In this document: piece after piece, positions 38,159 to 45,854 of the stretch | How positions within the stretch are numbered: the stretch's first letter is position 1 | Layout: each line of letters begins with the position of its first letter | Assembly: GCA_007121455.1 (NCBI GenBank) | Contig: SKKN01000003.1 | Span: forward strand, 186,001 to 250,000 | Length of the DNA stretch: 64,000 bases | Reading direction: 5' to 3' | From: Gemmatimonadota bacterium | GTDB lineage: Bacteria; Gemmatimonadota; Gemmatimonadetes; Longimicrobiales; Gaopeijiaceae | Position numbers and translations under genes: made by a program | Notes under the pieces: model-generated | What the model saw: only the letters and a program-made list of their open reading frames with translations | Told to the model about the DNA's origin: nothing | Database searches by the model: none

Positions 38159-38419
38159 GTGCGGGTCGGAGCCGCGGCGATCATTCCGGTCATGCTCGGC
38201 GCGATCTTCATGGTCCACTGGGGCCAATGGCATTTCATGGCGACCGAGACCCATCCCATGGGCGGGATGCAGTTTCAGGTCACCCTCCTCCTCATCCTGA
38301 GTTACCTCGCGTTGAAGGGGAACGGAGTAAACAGCGCAGGGATCGCGCGGGAGGAAATGGTCATGTCATTCGGGCCGGGGATTCACTCCTCGTGCTCGGC
38401 GATCGCTGCGATCAACTGA
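38159..38419 (+). pseudogene. DoxX-family C-terminal remnant
   Basis: The translated segment RVGAAAIIPVMLGAIFMVHW and the following GGMQFQVTLLLILSYLAL match the last two helices of small DoxX membrane proteins. The first half of the family, including its first two helices, is absent: the bases before 38159 encode no membrane segment in any frame. The GTG at 38159 has no ribosome site. After residue 57 the frame runs on into the opposing DUF4174 gene. Most likely a decayed gene. Confidence 0.6.
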
Positions 38420-38733
38420 TGCAGCGGAAGGGGCTCGTCCGACCTCAGGATCTCGGTTCCGTCCAGGCCGATCAGATGGAGACCGAATCCCCCCTCTTCC
38501 ACCCCGAAGCTTTCACGGGCCCGCTCCGCCTCTTCGTGGGATATCGGACGATCTTCGGCAAAGGACGGGCCGTCTTCGAAGAGCCCGAAAAACGCGATCT
38601 TCGACGCCTCCAGGTCTCCACTGTCGTCATGCAGATAGATGAGTTGCTCCTCGTAGCGCACGTCCTGCGGGTCGGGAGCGAATACGAGGAGGACCGGCTG
38701 CTTGAGTTGATACTGATCGAGGTCGAGAGCCAT
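38383..38733 (-). CDS. DUF4174 protein
   Basis: Protein of 116 residues with the DUF4174 pattern: a first strand PVLLVFAPDP, a central acidic helix region, and a closing GLHLIGLDGTEILRSDEPL with the LHQLIAAI helix. The fold is thioredoxin-like without redox cysteines. No signal peptide is seen, although some relatives are periplasmic. Function unknown. Its 3' end overlaps the DoxX remnant. Confidence 0.75.
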   Translation of the reverse strand: MALDLDQYQLKQPVLLVFAPDPQDVRYEEQLIYLHDDSGDLEASKIAFFGLFEDGPSFAEDRPISHEEAERARESFGVEEGGFGLHLIGLDGTEILRSDEPLPLHQLIAAIAEHEE

Positions 38734-38813
38734 GTCGCCGGCTCCTTCGATGAGGTTCTCGGGGGTCCGGGACTTCAGCCGCTGACCCCGGGATGGGATG
38801 TGTTCAGGGGCCC

Positions 38814-39284
38814 TTAGGGCTCCTTCCGCCCGAAGCTCCCGAGCCGAGGACTCACGAGGCGCTTGTAGTCATCGTACCTCAACCGTACGAGCTGGGTATG
38901 GGAGCCCGCGCTGAAGGCGATCTCTTCGTCCTCCTCCAGGGTTCGGTCCACGAAGACGGGGAGGTCGTAAAGGTTGCCGAAGGGGGGCATCGCCCCCAAC
39001 TCGCTGTCGGGAAAGAGCGTCTCGAACTCCTCCTCCGTGGCGAGCTCGGCACTTTCCGCGCCGGCTACTTCCGCCAGTGCCTGAAGGTCGATCTGGTGGG
39101 AGGCGGGGACCACCGCCATAACCATCTCCCCATCCACCTTCACCATGACCGGCTTGGCCAACTCCTTTCCGGGCACATGGGCGGCCGCGGCGATCTCCTG
39201 TGCCGTATAGGCCTTCGAGTGGTTGATGGTGACGTATCGCACCTTCTCCCGGTCGAGGAACTCGACGAGCTGCGTGATGGGCAT
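38814..39284 (-). CDS. YbaK/EbsC-family aminoacyl-tRNA deacylase-like protein
   Basis: Cytosolic protein of 156 residues. It matches the YbaK/ProXp fold: HSKAYTAQEIAAAAHVPGKE, LAKPVMVKVDGEMVMAVVPA, and a later LGAMPPFGNLYDLPVFVDRT with the GxxPPFG loop. Such proteins clear mischarged tRNA in trans. AGGTT-type ribosome site is weak. Its precise tRNA specificity cannot be read from sequence. It lies downstream of the ArsC-like gene on the same strand after 140 bases. Confidence 0.88.
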   Translation of the reverse strand: MPITQLVEFLDREKVRYVTINHSKAYTAQEIAAAAHVPGKELAKPVMVKVDGEMVMAVVPASHQIDLQALAEVAGAESAELATEEEFETLFPDSELGAMPPFGNLYDLPVFVDRTLEEDEEIAFSAGSHTQLVRLRYDDYKRLVSPRLGSFGRKEP

Positions 39285-39424
39285 GGGAACCTCCGGGCTG
39301 AGAGAGGTGAGGCAGGGGTTCGTGCTCCGTTTCCCCTTGCGAGAACCATGCCGGTCACTTGCGGGAGCTGGTCGGCCGGGGCAAGGCGCGTCGCCGGAGC
39401 CTTCTGGTCGCCCAGCCTTGCCCG

Positions 39425-39793
39425 CTACCGGTCAGGGCTGAAGAGCTCCCGCACGTTCTCCACGGGTCGCGCCAGAACTGCGCGGTCGCCTCGCTCCACG
39501 ATCGGGCGCTGGAGCAGCTCCGGGCTCTTCACGAGCAGGGAGAGGATCTCGTCGTCGGAGCGACCGTCGTCCGCGGTCACGCCAGCCGCGCGCGCCTCGC
39601 GCTTCCGGAGCACCTCGCGAGGACCCAGGTCCGCCTTTTCGAGGAGCTCCCGGAGCTTCTCCTCCTGGAGAGGCTCCACGAAATAGTCGACTCGCTCGAA
39701 CGGGATGCCTTCCTCCTCGAGGAGCTTCTTGAGCTTGCGGCAGGTGGTGCAGGTGGGCTTTTCGTAGACGGTCAGTTCGGGCTCGAGAGTCAT
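39425..39793 (-). CDS. ArsC/Spx-family thiol protein
   Basis: Protein of 122 residues with the arsenate reductase C-like thioredoxin fold. The active-site segment is KPTCTTCRKLKK with C15 and C18, a CxxC as in Spx/MgsR and YffB rather than the single catalytic Cys of classical ArsC. LLQRPIVERGDRAVLARP is the conserved C-terminal block. No arsR or arsB is nearby, so a role in arsenate resistance is doubtful. It begins 31 bases after the ATP-grasp gene of the cyanophycin operon and could be its last member. Confidence 0.8.
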   Translation of the reverse strand: MTLEPELTVYEKPTCTTCRKLKKLLEEEGIPFERVDYFVEPLQEEKLRELLEKADLGPREVLRKREARAAGVTADDGRSDDEILSLLVKSPELLQRPIVERGDRAVLARPVENVRELFSPDR

Positions 39794-39824: not shown

Positions 39825-41138
39825 TCAGCGGACGGGCACTTCCCGGTCGAACTCGAAGTGGAGACTCGTCGCGCATTCCCGCCAGTTGTCGCGCAGGGTC
39901 TTCCGGCTCCCGGCGCCCATGTAGACGATGGCCAGGGTATAGCTGTAGCTGTCCTGCTCGTGCAGCTCGGAGAGATACATGCCCTCTTCGACCTGCGGAT
40001 GGACGATGGTACCGGGAAACCGGTCGGCCAAGGCCTCGATCTCCGCAGAAGTCGGCACGCGGGTCACCCGGGCGTCCTCATAGGCACGGAGGAAAAACGC
40101 CGCCGCTCTCCGGAACTGTCCCTGCCGCATCGGAATTTCCGGGCGCTCACCCAGGGCGAGCTTGATCGGCACCTCGTGGTTGCTCGTTCCGTCGACCTTC
40201 TCGAACAGGTCGCTGTGGTGCTGAGCGACCCGCGTATTGATCTCCAGGAGCCAGGTGCGGTCCCGGGCCCTGTCCCAGAAGAACTCGATGTTGAATCCGG
40301 AGTTGTCGAATCCGATGTGCTCGAGCACACGGGTTCCAATCTCCGCCATGCGTGCCTGGACGCGTCGTGGCAGGCGGGAGGGATACTCGTAGCGCGCGAA
40401 GCTCGAGGAGTGGGGCACCCGTATGGAATCCACGGTACCGTGGAAGTGCACGTCCCCTTCGAAGACATACCCCTCCAGGGTGCATTGGCGGCCCCCGATG
40501 ATCTCCTCGGCGATGCAGTGGTTCCCATCGACCTGGCTGATCTCGGTGGGCAGGGACAGCTGCTGGAGCACGAAGTTGAACGGCTCTCCGAGCTGGCCGA
40601 TCTGCTCGCGGATCTGCTCCACGGCTCCGTCCAGAACGTGTCGGCTCGGGATGCGAAACCCGAGAAAGGACCCGCTCGACTTCACGGGCTTGATCCAGAA
40701 AGGGTAGGAGAGTTGGATGCGGTCCACGGCTTCGTCGTCGAAGGGGTCTACCGCGGTGAAGGTGGGAATCGCCTCGGGGACGACCTTCCTCTGTTCGACC
40801 CTCGCCCAGTATTTGTGCTCGCATTTCAGGACGCTTTCCAGCTCGGGTGCCCGAAGGCCGAATTTCCGGCACAGGATGGGCAGCATGGTGCTGATGGGGA
40901 AGTCGATGTATCCGGCGACGGCATCGACGCGCCCGGAAAACGCGCGGAGCTCGCCTTCGGCCTGGCGAAGCATCCCCGGGACGTCGTAGTCGTGGGGTTC
41001 GTCGAGCAGGCCATGAAAGCGAAAGCGCTCAGCGCCCTGGATGCTCTCGAGCTTCTCCCGGTGGAACGGGGTCAGTCCGACGAGGAAAACGTTCTTCCGG
41101 CCGTCGTGTTTCTCGGGTGCTTCGAGTGGAGCGGTCAC
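39825..41138 (-). CDS. uncharacterised ATP-grasp ligase of the cyanophycin operon
   Basis: Protein of 437 residues with a pre-ATP-grasp Rossmann-like domain (about 15-100) and an ATP-grasp domain (about 105-330). Visible nucleotide residues are Lys150 and Lys153 in FWIKPVKSSGS and the EEIIGG...EGYVFEGD strand (Glu211-Glu227). The metal site is WLLEINTR at 296-303 with Glu299 and Asn301. An extra C-terminal domain of about 100 residues follows. The GTG start overlaps the iadA stop, so it is the fourth co-translated gene after cphB, cphA and iadA. It should activate a carboxylate and join it to an amine or thiol; the substrate is not known. Products of this operon such as Asp, Arg or beta-Asp-Arg are natural candidates. 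Confidence 0.8.
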   Translation of the reverse strand: MTAPLEAPEKHDGRKNVFLVGLTPFHREKLESIQGAERFRFHGLLDEPHDYDVPGMLRQAEGELRAFSGRVDAVAGYIDFPISTMLPILCRKFGLRAPELESVLKCEHKYWARVEQRKVVPEAIPTFTAVDPFDDEAVDRIQLSYPFWIKPVKSSGSFLGFRIPSRHVLDGAVEQIREQIGQLGEPFNFVLQQLSLPTEISQVDGNHCIAEEIIGGRQCTLEGYVFEGDVHFHGTVDSIRVPHSSSFARYEYPSRLPRRVQARMAEIGTRVLEHIGFDNSGFNIEFFWDRARDRTWLLEINTRVAQHHSDLFEKVDGTSNHEVPIKLALGERPEIPMRQGQFRRAAAFFLRAYEDARVTRVPTSAEIEALADRFPGTIVHPQVEEGMYLSELHEQDSYSYTLAIVYMGAGSRKTLRDNWRECATSLHFEFDREVPVR

Positions 41139-42319
41139 ATGACCCCCTGGTCGGACGGAGGATGGATTCGGCGCCCCGCGACGAACGTCTGCCGGGGCTG
41201 AAGATCGGAGTCGACCAGCGTTACATCGGCATCGGAACCGATGGCCAGTCGGCCTTTCCGGTCGTGCAATCCGAGCACGCGGGCCACGTTTCCCGAGATC
41301 AGGCTCAGGGCCGCTTCGAGCGGCAGGATCTTCTCGCGCACGAGCTTCTGCCAGTCGCCGAGCAGCGCCCCGTTGCCCGCAACGCGCATGCCCACATAGG
41401 TGCCGCGCGCATCGAATTCGGGCAGGCTGCCGTTGCAGTCGGAGCTGATCGTGATCCGTTCGATCGGAACGCCGGCCTCGAGCAGCGCGCACACGGCGGT
41501 GAATGCGGAGTGTTCGTCGTCTCCGGCGTGATCATCGAATGCGGTCACGTCGACGCTCGCCCCGAACAGCTTCGCGTACGAGGCCGCCTCTGCCAGCAGC
41601 TCGTGGCGACGGTTCACATGGGTGGGGATGACCTGGTCCGGGGGGATCTCGGTCTCGGTGAGGAGGCGCCGCAGCGGCTCGAGCCCGCGCGTGCCGTCGC
41701 CCACGTGGAAATGACAGATTCCGCGCTTGCCTGCGAGCATCGCACCCACCCGCGCCTCGGATACCAGGCGCTCGAGCTCGTCCTGGCGTGGCTGACTCGA
41801 TCGGTGGTCCGAAATCGCGATCTCGCCCACGCCGATGACCTCCGGAATCCAGGCGAGGTCGCGCTGGACATCGCCGGTGAGGGTCGGCGGCGGAACCCGG
41901 TACGCGCCGGTGTACATGTACGCCGCGATACCGTCGGCGCGGAGCCCCCGTACCTTTGCCAGGAGATCCGCGGGTGACCGGCTGACGCTGTCGGTGCCGA
42001 GCACTCCTACGACGGTGCCGATTCCCACCGAGGCGATTTCGGCTGTCGTGATCTCCGGGCAGCGAGTGCCGTAGCCACCTTCACCTCCGCCTCCCGTCAC
42101 ATGGACGTGCTGGTCGATGAAGGCCGGCACGGCTGTGAGATCCGGGGCCGTGACCGTGCGCACGGGCCAGCCCGGAGGTGCTTCGAGGTCGCTTCCGATC
42201 GCGGCGATCTTCCCGCCGGCAATCAGGATGTCCGTTGCATCCAGGGGTTCCGGAGCGAAGACCCGCCCGACGCGGAGCCTCGTCAGAAGGGGTGCGTCCG
42301 GATCCACCGGTTCGGTCAT
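41135..42319 (-). CDS. iadA: isoaspartyl dipeptidase (beta-aspartyl peptidase)
   Basis: Amidohydrolase-superfamily protein of 394 residues. The metal-binding motif is in QHVHVTGGGGEGG, with H71 and H73, and the glycine run is specific to IadA. The later CHFHVGDG and PTHVNR segments supply further metal ligands, and ITISSDCNGSLPEFD carries the catalytic Asp. IadA splits beta-aspartyl dipeptides. In this operon it should cut the beta-Asp-Arg released from cyanophycin by CphB into aspartate and arginine. Overlaps cphA and the ATP-grasp gene by four bases each. Confidence 0.92.
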   Translation of the reverse strand: MTEPVDPDAPLLTRLRVGRVFAPEPLDATDILIAGGKIAAIGSDLEAPPGWPVRTVTAPDLTAVPAFIDQHVHVTGGGGEGGYGTRCPEITTAEIASVGIGTVVGVLGTDSVSRSPADLLAKVRGLRADGIAAYMYTGAYRVPPPTLTGDVQRDLAWIPEVIGVGEIAISDHRSSQPRQDELERLVSEARVGAMLAGKRGICHFHVGDGTRGLEPLRRLLTETEIPPDQVIPTHVNRRHELLAEAASYAKLFGASVDVTAFDDHAGDDEHSAFTAVCALLEAGVPIERITISSDCNGSLPEFDARGTYVGMRVAGNGALLGDWQKLVREKILPLEAALSLISGNVARVLGLHDRKGRLAIGSDADVTLVDSDLQPRQTFVAGRRIHPPSDQGVM

Positions 42320-44934
42320 GGGGTGCTGCGAGTGGAGTGCTTGAACCCTCGCCCCTTCAACCGCTGCTTTGCATTCTCCAGGTCGTCGACGAGCAGCACC
42401 AGGAGCTCGCCCTCGTCCGCTTCATCGAACGCCCGGTCCACGGCTGCGTGTTCGTCCAACACGATCTCGACGGAACAGCCGCCGACCGATTCGGCGCCGT
42501 CCTGGACGAGCCCGGCCGCATCGCCCGGTTTGCGGCCCCGCGGATGGGTCTCACACACGAAAAGCAGGTCGTGCATGCCGGCCAGTTGCACGCCGAGCGC
42601 GGAGATGTCCTCGTCCCGGCGATTGCCGGGGGCGCTCGCGACGCAGATGCGGCGGTGGGCGGGAAGGCTGCGTACCAGATCGTCGAGGGCTTTGAGCGCC
42701 GGCACGTTGTGCGCGTAGTCGATCAACACCTTCACGCCGTCCGCATCGATGAGGTTCGTCCGTCCGGGGTTCTGGCCCGGAGTCGGGTGGAACGTCTGGA
42801 GTCCCATCTGGAGGTCCGCGATGCTGAGTCCCAGAGCATGACCGGCCGCGGCCGCAGCGAGGGCGTTCGCGACGTTGAAGCTCGCATGCCCCTCGAAGGT
42901 GATGGGCACGTCGGCGACTGGGATGACCTCGGCTTCTACGTGGCCCTGGCGCATGACGATGGACTCGTCGTGGACCGTGAACGCAACACCGTGGCCCTCC
43001 ACATGCTCGCGCACCGGTTCCGAATCGGGGTCCATGGTAAAGAAGATGATGTCGCCGCGGGCCCACTCCCGGCTCTGCAGAACTCGCGGATCGTCCGCGT
43101 TGAGCACGGCTGTGCCCCCCTCGCGAACTCCGTCGACGACGACGGTCTTGCATCGGGCCAGCTCATCGAGTGTGCGGATGTCGTGTTCGCCCAGATGGTC
43201 GCTCGCGATGTTCAGCACCACACCGACTTCGCACTCGTCAAAGCCGAGCCCACGCCGCATGATGCCGCCGCGTGCGACCTCCAGGACCGCGTGCTCCACG
43301 GTGGACTCCCGCAGCACGGTCTGGGCTCCGACCGGGCCGCTGTAGTCACCGCGCATGATCACGTGGTTGTCGATCTCGATGGTGTCCGTGCACGCCATGC
43401 CGACGTTGCGACCGGAGTGGCGCAGCAGGTGTGAGATGAGGCGGACGGTCGTGGTCTTGCCGTTCGTACCGGTGACCGCCGTGATCGGGATGCGGCCGGT
43501 GCTCTCGCTGTCCGGAAACAACATGTCGACCACGTGCTTGCCGACGTCGCGCCCCTCACCATGGGTCGGCGACAGGTGCATGCGGAAGCCGGGGCCGGCG
43601 TTCACCTCGACGACACCTGCGGGCTGTCCTTCCAGCGGGACCGACAACGATTCGGCCAGCAGGTCGACTCCGATGATGTCGAGCCCGATCAGCCGAGCGA
43701 TCCGCTCGGAGGCGTAGCGCACTTCAGGGTGCACGTCGTCCGTCACGTCCGTCGCCGTTCCGCCGGTGCTCAGGTTGGCCGTGGACTTGAGCCAGACGAT
43801 CTCGCCGGTCGGGACCACCGTGTCCAGCGTTATTCCCTGCTGTTCGATCAGGCGGAGCGACTGTTCGTCCACATCGATCTGAGTGAGGAGGTTCTCATGA
43901 CCGATGCCTCGCCGGGGATCCCGGTTCTCTTCGTCGACCAACTCCTGAAGCGTGGATGTTCCGTCCCCGATCACGTGTGCCGGACGACGGCGGGCTGCGG
44001 CCACCATCGTGCCGTCTACGATGAGTAGACGATGGTCTTCGCCCTCGAGGTGCTCCTCGACGATGACCGTTTCGTGGCGATGGTACGCCGCCTCGTAGGC
44101 ATCGCGCAGCGCGGCATCGTCACGGATGTCCATGGTCACTCCCCGGCCGTGGTTGCCGACCAGCGGCTTGGTCACGACCGGGTAGCCGAGGGATCCTGCG
44201 GCCTCGAGAGCTTCCTCGACGGAGTAGCATGGCTGCCCCTGCGGGACCGGGATGCCGGCGTCCCCGAGGATCTGCTTGGTCCAGGCCTTGTCGTCCGCGA
44301 TGCCGGAGCCGATCAGGCTCGAGCGATGAGTGATCGTCGCCTGGAAGCGCTCCTGTAGGTGGCCGTGGCCGAGTTGGATGTAGCTGTTCTCCTCGCTCAG
44401 ACGGACATGGGGGATCCCGCGGGCCCGGGCGGCCTCCACGATCGACGCGGTGGACGGTCCCAGCACGTGCGTGTCCCGCACCTCTTTCAGCCGCGCGATG
44501 ATCGCGGGCATGTCGATCTCGTCGCCGTGGAAGAGTCGATCCACCAGATCGACGGCTTCGCGACCGGCCGCCAGGCCGCAAGCCTCGTCACGGTATCGGT
44601 AGACTACATGGTAGATCCCGGGATCATACGAATCGATCGTCTTGCCGTATCCGACCGAGAACCCGATCAGGTTCTGGAGCTCGATCGCCACGTGCTCGGT
44701 GACGTGCCCCGCCCAGGTTCCGCGCTCGAGCCGCTCCAGGAAGCCGCCGGGCCGGCCGACCGAGCATCGGTGCTCCTGCAGGCTGGGAATGAGGTCGGTG
44801 ATGCGATCTGCGATGCCCGGTACCAGGTGGCTCGGTCGCTCGTCGAGCTCCCCGAGATCGAGGCGCATGTAGATCGTCAGGTAGCGGCTGAAGTAGTTCG
44901 GGCCGCGGAGCGCCCTGAGATCGAGTATGTCCAC
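42316..44934 (-). CDS. cphA: cyanophycin synthetase
   Basis: Protein of 872 residues that builds the storage polymer multi-L-arginyl-poly-L-aspartate using ATP. Order: N-terminal domain (1-160), ATP-grasp domain with KPLVGNHGRGVTM (about 250) and EVNAGPGFRMH (about 445), and Mur-ligase-like domain with P-loop TGTNGKTTT (about 489-497) and HPTPGQNPGR-type sequence late. The first domain adds Asp, the Mur-like one Arg. Length and motif order match CphA1 rather than the shorter dipeptide-using CphA2. Coupled to cphB (two-base gap) and iadA (four-base overlap). Confidence 0.95.
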   Translation of the reverse strand: MDILDLRALRGPNYFSRYLTIYMRLDLGELDERPSHLVPGIADRITDLIPSLQEHRCSVGRPGGFLERLERGTWAGHVTEHVAIELQNLIGFSVGYGKTIDSYDPGIYHVVYRYRDEACGLAAGREAVDLVDRLFHGDEIDMPAIIARLKEVRDTHVLGPSTASIVEAARARGIPHVRLSEENSYIQLGHGHLQERFQATITHRSSLIGSGIADDKAWTKQILGDAGIPVPQGQPCYSVEEALEAAGSLGYPVVTKPLVGNHGRGVTMDIRDDAALRDAYEAAYHRHETVIVEEHLEGEDHRLLIVDGTMVAAARRRPAHVIGDGTSTLQELVDEENRDPRRGIGHENLLTQIDVDEQSLRLIEQQGITLDTVVPTGEIVWLKSTANLSTGGTATDVTDDVHPEVRYASERIARLIGLDIIGVDLLAESLSVPLEGQPAGVVEVNAGPGFRMHLSPTHGEGRDVGKHVVDMLFPDSESTGRIPITAVTGTNGKTTTVRLISHLLRHSGRNVGMACTDTIEIDNHVIMRGDYSGPVGAQTVLRESTVEHAVLEVARGGIMRRGLGFDECEVGVVLNIASDHLGEHDIRTLDELARCKTVVVDGVREGGTAVLNADDPRVLQSREWARGDIIFFTMDPDSEPVREHVEGHGVAFTVHDESIVMRQGHVEAEVIPVADVPITFEGHASFNVANALAAAAAGHALGLSIADLQMGLQTFHPTPGQNPGRTNLIDADGVKVLIDYAHNVPALKALDDLVRSLPAHRRICVASAPGNRRDEDISALGVQLAGMHDLLFVCETHPRGRKPGDAAGLVQDGAESVGGCSVEIVLDEHAAVDRAFDEADEGELLVLLVDDLENAKQRLKGRGFKHSTRSTP

Positions 44935-44936
44935 GG

Positions 44937-45779
44937 TTACCTCATGAGGCCGGAACGGAGAGTGTCCGGGGAGAGATAGGTTCGTCCGTCGATATCGTAT
45001 CCATGCCCGCTGATGAGTGCGTGCATGATGATGTTCTCGATCGCGATGGGTTCGTCCATCTCCAGGTCGGCGACGTTCGAGCTGGCCAGATTGCGGCTGT
45101 CGATCAGGATCACGTGTCCCGAGCCCAGCGCCTCCAGGGTCCGGTTCGGATGGATGATCACTGCGGCGTCCTCACCGAGGCCGACCCCGAGGTGCTCCGG
45201 GTTCGTGGCGCCGACCGCCATCAGTCGCGTGACCCGGCCCCGCGCCAGGAAATGGCTGTCGATGATCATGTTGTCCACGAACCCGAGGCCCGATGTCATC
45301 TTGACCGCGCCCTTCCTCAGCGCATCCGCGGAGCCGCCGTTGTAGATCATCGTCGTCGAGAGCGCCACCGCCCCCGCACTCGTTCCGGCGACCACTGCCC
45401 CGGCCATGAACCGCTCCCGGATCGCTCGGACGATGGCGGATCCGCCCAGCACGTTCGTCAGGCGCAGTTGATCGCCTCCGGTGAAGAAGATCGCACCGCT
45501 CCGCCGGATCACCTCCACGTGTTCCGGATCGGCCGCATGCTGCCGCGTCCGAATGCCCAGCGTCTGGACCCGGCTCGCGCCGAGACGGCCGAAGGCGGCC
45601 GCGTAGGTGGGGACCACCTCGTCCGGAATTCCGCTCGCCGTGGCGATCACCGTCACCTCCGTGTTGCCTTTCGGAGCCAGAGAAAGGACACGGGAGAGGA
45701 TCTCGAGTTCGGATTCCTTGTCTTCGGCGCCGCCGATCGCGACGAGCCTTCCACAGGTATCGGGCCAGGGAGATGCCAT
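44937..45779 (-). CDS. cphB: cyanophycinase
   Basis: Serine exopeptidase of 280 residues (S51 family) that cuts cyanophycin into beta-Asp-Arg dipeptides. The nucleophile is Ser134 in AGTSAGAVAL; GGDQLRLTNVL near 101-111 and GLGEDAAVII near the C-terminal half are family segments. No signal peptide, so it acts on cytoplasmic granules. It is the first gene of the operon behind a good promoter, so the degrading enzyme is made together with the synthetase. Confidence 0.93.
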   Translation of the reverse strand: MASPWPDTCGRLVAIGGAEDKESELEILSRVLSLAPKGNTEVTVIATASGIPDEVVPTYAAAFGRLGASRVQTLGIRTRQHAADPEHVEVIRRSGAIFFTGGDQLRLTNVLGGSAIVRAIRERFMAGAVVAGTSAGAVALSTTMIYNGGSADALRKGAVKMTSGLGFVDNMIIDSHFLARGRVTRLMAVGATNPEHLGVGLGEDAAVIIHPNRTLEALGSGHVILIDSRNLASSNVADLEMDEPIAIENIIMHALISGHGYDIDGRTYLSPDTLRSGLMR

Positions 45780-45821
45780 ACGGATGTCTTCGCCGCCTGG
45801 AAGGGGCAGCGGGTTTGGAGG

Positions 45822-45854
45822 ATTCTATGAGTACCCGAAAACGAGTGTAACACT
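45822..45854 (-). promoter_or_regulatory. promoter of the cphB-cphA-iadA-ATP-grasp operon with overlapping palindrome
   Basis: On the minus strand TTACAC (45850-45845) lies exactly 17 bases before TAGAAT (45827-45822), a close sigma-70 match. The transcript would start near 45815, about 36 bases before cphB. An inverted repeat AGTGT-A-ACACT (45844-45854) covers the -35 box and could be a repressor site. Confidence 0.6.

Follow-up and report, generated by a model that had tools for sequence, protein, structure and literature searches.

An ATP-grasp gene in the cyanophycin gene clusters of mostly salt-loving bacteria

In the usual view, cyanophycin metabolism is complete with a synthetase, a cyanophycinase and a dipeptidase. 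What, then, is the task of a fourth gene, coding for an ATP-grasp protein, that ends the cyanophycin operon in the 64,000 nucleotides of a Gemmatimonadota genome analysed here (contig SKKN01000003.1; hereafter the window)? The minus strand carries, in this order, cphB (cyanophycinase, 280 amino acids, 44937..45779), cphA (cyanophycin synthetase, 872 amino acids, 42316..44934), iadA (isoaspartyl dipeptidase, 394 amino acids, 41135..42319) and the ATP-grasp gene (437 amino acids, 39825..41138), the GTG start of which overlaps the iadA stop. An earlier reading of this DNA from its letters alone (the sequence-only reading) had named the first three genes correctly, since all of them exceed curated NCBIfam cut-offs (CphB, TIGR02069, 232.7 bits over 126.6; CphA, TIGR02068, 1121.5 over 850; IadA, TIGR01975, 403 over 331), and it had rightly described the four genes as joined by gaps or overlaps of 2–4 bases: a 2-base gap separates cphB from cphA, and the cphA/iadA and iadA/ATP-grasp junctions are 4-base overlaps. 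Our preferred reading, to which we give a probability of about 45%, is that the fourth gene encodes an ATP-grasp enzyme of the L-amino-acid (dipeptide) ligase type, which stands beside the cyanophycin cycle in halophiles and is opposed by a hydrolase of the CocE/NonD type (S15). The ligase is kept by almost all cphA-bearing genomes of one large halophile family and is met in the same operon across phyla, and this indicates a step or metabolite that has not yet been described; cyanophycin metabolism in mostly salt-loving bacteria probably includes such a step.

Linkage to cyanophycin genes across lineages

Gap lengths alone prove little, but other genomes repeat the linkage, which shows it to be no accident. 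Relatives of the ATP-grasp protein were sought in one genome per species; 525 were found, and the neighbourhood counts refer to the best 80 of them. In 23 of these 80 loci cphA lies within about 1.3 kb of the ATP-grasp gene, and the linked copies show several gene orders and represent three phyla, counting the window. Chromohalobacter and its relatives have a divergent arrangement (iadA-cphA-cphB / ATP-grasp-S15), Salinisphaera and Nitrococcus a co-directional one (cphB-cphA-iadA-ATP-grasp-S15), and Ferruginivarius and a metagenome-assembled genome (MAG) of Desulfobacteraceae have cphB-cphA-ATP-grasp. In addition to the 23 loci, a Desulfohalobiaceae MAG (L101) has cphB-ATP-grasp-cphA, and one genome of the Fodinicurvata order (L206) has iaaA-ATP-grasp-S15-cphA-cphB. 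Linkage to cphA and cphB thus recurs across lineages, and on the tree of the ATP-grasp proteins the linked state changes at least six times. In some Alphaproteobacteria the place of IadA beside the ATP-grasp gene is taken by the non-homologous isoaspartyl peptidase IaaA, and an exchange of this kind in one position speaks for a functional neighbourhood. Matches of the iaaA-like genes in Fodinicurvata (L017) and in Pararhizobium (L091) to the Ntn-type beta-aspartyl-peptidase model fall below its equivalog cut-off, and the gene in L206 was identified by its homology to these two. In Fodinicurvata (L215, L098 and the end of L017) two contigs end in parts of this cluster, one in the trio iaaA-ATP-grasp-S15 and the other in the cph genes, and one of these ends has a transposase-like open reading frame; an insertion sequence may have divided the cluster, or the break may come from the assembly alone.

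The cyanophycin cluster with an added, uncharacterised ligase is therefore a real and recurrent extension, strongly associated with the cyanophycin genes and not obligate. Clusters of cphA, cphB and iadA or iaaA were surveyed before (PMC10206079), and the window contains the same three enzymes with highly similar sequences. The survey mentions an ATP-grasp gene nowhere; it mentions a single CocE-like neighbour, in one genome, for which a dipeptidase function is considered possible, whereas the loci compared here regularly pair the ATP-grasp gene with a gene for a CocE/NonD hydrolase. Neither the ATP-grasp gene nor its pairing with S15 was found described in the literature on cyanophycin with ATP-grasp, Halomonas or halophiles, or on CocE with ATP-grasp, coverage of which was incomplete, so that absence is unproven.

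Might the ligase simply make primers for CphA, as the sequence-only reading had suggested? Linkage to cphA and the primer requirement of some CphA1 enzymes (PMC9262961) would fit such a role. However, the motif for primer making in the N-domain of CphA, C-x19-HxxEH (PMC9262961), is intact in the window, where it reads CSVGRPGGFLERLERGTWAGHVTEH from CphA residue 57 (residues 57–81, 44692..44766, minus strand, found by pattern match). It is also kept in 24 of the 24 CphA proteins compared, so a separate primer-making enzyme is not needed, and the ATP-grasp family also occurs without cphA. Primer synthesis was rejected on the ground of this intact motif and is very improbable.

One-sided co-occurrence with cphA

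The family of Chromohalobacter moromii was examined in 250 genomes, an ATP-grasp orthologue being counted at E < 1e-140 and cphA when over its cut-off. The ATP-grasp gene is present in 101 genomes, cphA in 71 and both in 70, so that 70 of the 71 genomes with cphA carry the ligase, against 31 of the 179 without cphA (Fisher p 4e-36, uncorrected for kinship). Among the 70 genomes with both genes, 31 have them linked and 39 unlinked. An rpoB tree covering 100 of these genomes gave 11 independent pairs with a difference in cphA, and the ATP-grasp gene changes the same way in a mean of 6.4 pairs and the opposite way in none (median p 0.03); the reverse test gave 15 pairs, 5.4 the same way and none opposite (p 0.06). 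Support for the association after correction for phylogeny is therefore modest, never contrary. In the Fodinicurvata order the ATP-grasp gene occurs in 4 of the 5 genomes with canonical cphA and in 1 of the 56 others (p 4.7e-5). G666 and G708 are the exceptions that have cphA and lack the ATP-grasp gene. Their cphA genes lie on short contigs (7.1 and 4.0 kb), from which neighbours may have been lost, but no ATP-grasp match was found on their other contigs either. Seven genomes of the Fodinicurvata order that lack the ATP-grasp gene (G719, G720, G721, G724, G725, G726 and G679) encode divergent CphA-like proteins of 699–816 bits, below the TIGR02068 cut-off, and in G721 and G724 two such genes stand in tandem.

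The relation is one-sided: halophiles with cphA nearly always have the ATP-grasp gene, and the reverse does not hold. Close homologues without cphA, which the sequence-only reading had counted as speaking against a place in the cyanophycin module, do exist in numbers (31 of the 101 carriers in the Chromohalobacter family, 23 of the 48 genomes reached via loci), so that this objection applies in part; yet nearly all cphA-bearing genomes of that family carry the ligase, and together with the 23 linked loci in their several orders this bears out the proposed membership of the module. What found no support is a role tied to the polymer or to primers only. The presence of the ligase without cphA suggests that its substrate is available without the polymer, such as a free amino acid.

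Is the polymer itself or beta-Asp-Arg the direct target, the enzyme capping, branching or recycling beta-Asp-Arg as a functional analogue of cyanobacterial CphA2? Its gene has cphB, cphA and the dipeptidase gene as neighbours on one side or on both, nearly every cphA-bearing genome of the Chromohalobacter family has it, and CphA2 is likewise an ATP-dependent ligase tied to cyanophycin recycling. CphA2, however, is homologous to CphA and has a domain of the Mur-ligase type, whereas the window protein matches only ATP-grasp families. The carriers without cphA count further against this role, because cyanophycinase matches track cphA closely in the family, so that such carriers would have no beta-Asp-Arg from that source. 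A polymer-specific role is thus disfavoured, and we consider it improbable.

A different explanation is hitch-hiking: the ATP-grasp/S15 pair would serve salt-loving cells in some other way, for example by making an osmolyte from precursors other than those of cyanophycin, and would share genomes and gene islands with the cph genes because both are transferred among halophiles. The best 80 relatives belong mainly to Halomonadaceae and to other organisms with names or sample labels that suggest saline or soda habitats (among them Salinisphaera, Nitriliruptoraceae, Desulfohalobiaceae, Fodinicurvata and Rhodovibrio). The CphA of the window is 70–76% identical to most linked copies (Proteobacteria, Desulfobacteraceae) and 50% identical over 521 residues to that of L029; its CphB is 61–70% identical to most linked proteobacterial copies and 44% to that of L029, and its IadA is 74–81% identical to those of linked gammaproteobacterial loci. 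The high identities of CphA and IadA to proteobacterial copies suggest that the module may have moved by horizontal transfer. Such transfer, the carriers without cphA, distant relatives borne on plasmids without cph genes and the modest phylogeny-corrected association would all suit hitch-hiking. On the other hand, the operon-like overlaps, the repeated changes of linkage on the tree, the exchange of iadA for iaaA and the one-sided co-occurrence exceed what a shared habitat would lead one to expect, and the two genes still co-occur where they are unlinked (39 of 70). Hitch-hiking remains a serious rival, even if on balance we hold it to be unlikely.

Fold of the ligase and its hydrolase partner

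Against Pfam the ATP-grasp protein gave only generic matches (ATP-grasp_4, 33 bits), and no NCBIfam family came near its cut-off. The sequence-only reading had called the residues for ATP and metal intact, and this was confirmed: the E-x-N-x-R metal/ATP motif (residues 299–303, 40230..40244, minus strand) has E299, N301 and R303 invariant in 44 aligned relatives, and of 86 relatives 84 have E[IVML]N[TP]R and 85 have FNxE[FY]. The AlphaFold2 model (mean predicted local distance difference test score 92.8) was compared with 998 chains, among which the L-amino-acid ligase BL00235 was the best match (Z 31.0, 385 residues, root-mean-square deviation 3.4), ahead of the next chain by 2.3 Z. The next chain that is not an L-amino-acid ligase is 4dim (Z 28.7), and BL00235 stands ahead of glycinamide ribonucleotide (GAR) synthetase (28.7), PurK (28.2), BacD/YwfE (27.7), RizA (27.5) and biotin carboxylase (27.4). 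The whole-chain fold of the predicted model is thus of the L-amino-acid ligase type. A profile of the family also matches BL00235 (3vot; E 1.9e-4), over 74 positions only. BL00235, BacD/YwfE and RizA are known from Bacillus, with BacD acting in the bacilysin and RizA in the rhizocticin pathway. The window protein resembles BL00235, BacD/YwfE and RizA in overall ATP-grasp fold (Z 27–31), in its intact ATP/Mg residues and in size; it differs from them in being only about 15% identical, in an unusual SQxH loop after E-x-N-x-R and in its genomic setting.

Local profile matches around the E-x-N-x-R motif are to urea carboxylase, biotin carboxylase and carbamoyl-phosphate synthetase, and would suit a bicarbonate-using carboxylase, a carbamoyl-phosphate-type enzyme or a relative from the purine pathway. 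Yet the glutamate of the N-T-R-x-x-x-E-H motif, which is E296 of E. coli AccC and belongs to the bicarbonate site, is present in none of the 86 sequences; the motif was aligned to S. aureus biotin carboxylase. Moreover, no biotin partner gene was seen adjoining the ATP-grasp gene, and the whole-protein fold is nearest to L-amino-acid ligases. Carboxylase identity was rejected on the missing glutamate, and the chance that the protein belongs to any of these groups is slight. Amino acid ligation is plausible from the predicted fold, and so is a function of the ATP-grasp protein within the cyanophycin cluster; of the earlier suggestions, it is the ligation of an amino acid that gains support.

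The commonest partner of the ATP-grasp gene escaped the sequence-only reading; none adjoins the window copy. A CocE/NonD gene (Peptidase_S15 with PepX_C) directly follows the ATP-grasp gene in 69 instances. The protein lies above the TIGR00976 cut-off, among solved structures it is nearest in sequence to cocaine esterase, and it carries the motifs of a Ser-Asp-His triad (GxSWGG in 66 of 67, WxDG and GPWxH in 67 of 67). In Salinisphaera and Nitrococcus (L032 13483-14787, L053) a further hydrolase gene follows S15 in the cph operon; that of L032 is an ArgE/DapE-type M20 deacylase.

A possible role, paralogues and neighbouring genes

How could these activities fit together? CphA stores aspartate and arginine as an insoluble polymer, from which CphB and IadA (or IaaA) free beta-Asp-Arg and then Asp and Arg. 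The ATP-grasp enzyme would turn the carboxylate of one small acid, likeliest that of a free amino acid such as arginine or aspartate, into an acyl phosphate and couple it with an amine. The product would be a soluble dipeptide or amide of small size, to be split by the S15 serine hydrolase, the gene of which is usually adjacent and in the window genome lies next to a paralogue on a different contig. Ligase and hydrolase together may then form a second, soluble pool of nitrogen or arginine, possibly also an osmolyte, tied to the polymer pool through free Asp or Arg. A full two-pool system of halophiles, in which a previously unknown Arg/Asp dipeptide or amide, made by the ligase and broken by S15, serves beside the insoluble polymer as both nitrogen buffer and osmolyte, is a more doubtful extension. 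The ligase itself could be of interest for the storage of nitrogen, for salt tolerance and for making dipeptides enzymatically.

Several points weigh against the ligase reading. PurK, GAR synthetase and biotin carboxylase lie only 2–4 Z below BL00235, so that fold alone leaves the reaction unfixed; no substrate residue was mapped onto a characterised ligase, nor was there a residue-level alignment to RizA by which its mutants (PMC9321006) could be used. Five cph-linked copies (the window, L029, L034, L086 and L091) have no adjoining S15 gene, many carriers, as counted above, have no detectable cphA, unlinked genomes alone give too few pairs for significance in the phylogeny-corrected test, and halophily and habitat were taken from record titles only.

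The family is rare in the phylum of the window, with carriers in 2 of the 395 genomes sampled, the window genome included. This genome has two paralogues of the ATP-grasp gene, 52% and 43% identical to the window copy, and one of them, on another contig, lies beside a CocE/NonD hydrolase gene, beyond which there is a BCCT-like transporter. The 43% paralogue (L005 11345-15761) is directly 5' of a gene that includes a fatty acyl-AMP ligase, which suggests that additional pathways are served by the wider ATP-grasp family. Two tandem ATP-grasp genes precede S15 in a MAG of a related Gemmatimonadota bacterium (L013 8402-13302), and the second is 77% identical to the window copy.

Upstream of cphB a possible sigma-70-like promoter was noted (GTTACA-18-TAGAAT, 45822..45851, minus strand). 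The one good promoter of the sequence-only reading thus holds as a single site before cphB and not as a good one, since it has 9 of 12 matches, and 0.5 such sites are expected by chance. Downstream of the ATP-grasp gene and in the same direction (38383-39793, minus strand) lie a gene of ArsC/glutaredoxin-like type, at a distance of 31 bases, one for aminoacyl-tRNA editing of the YbaK type and one with DUF4174.
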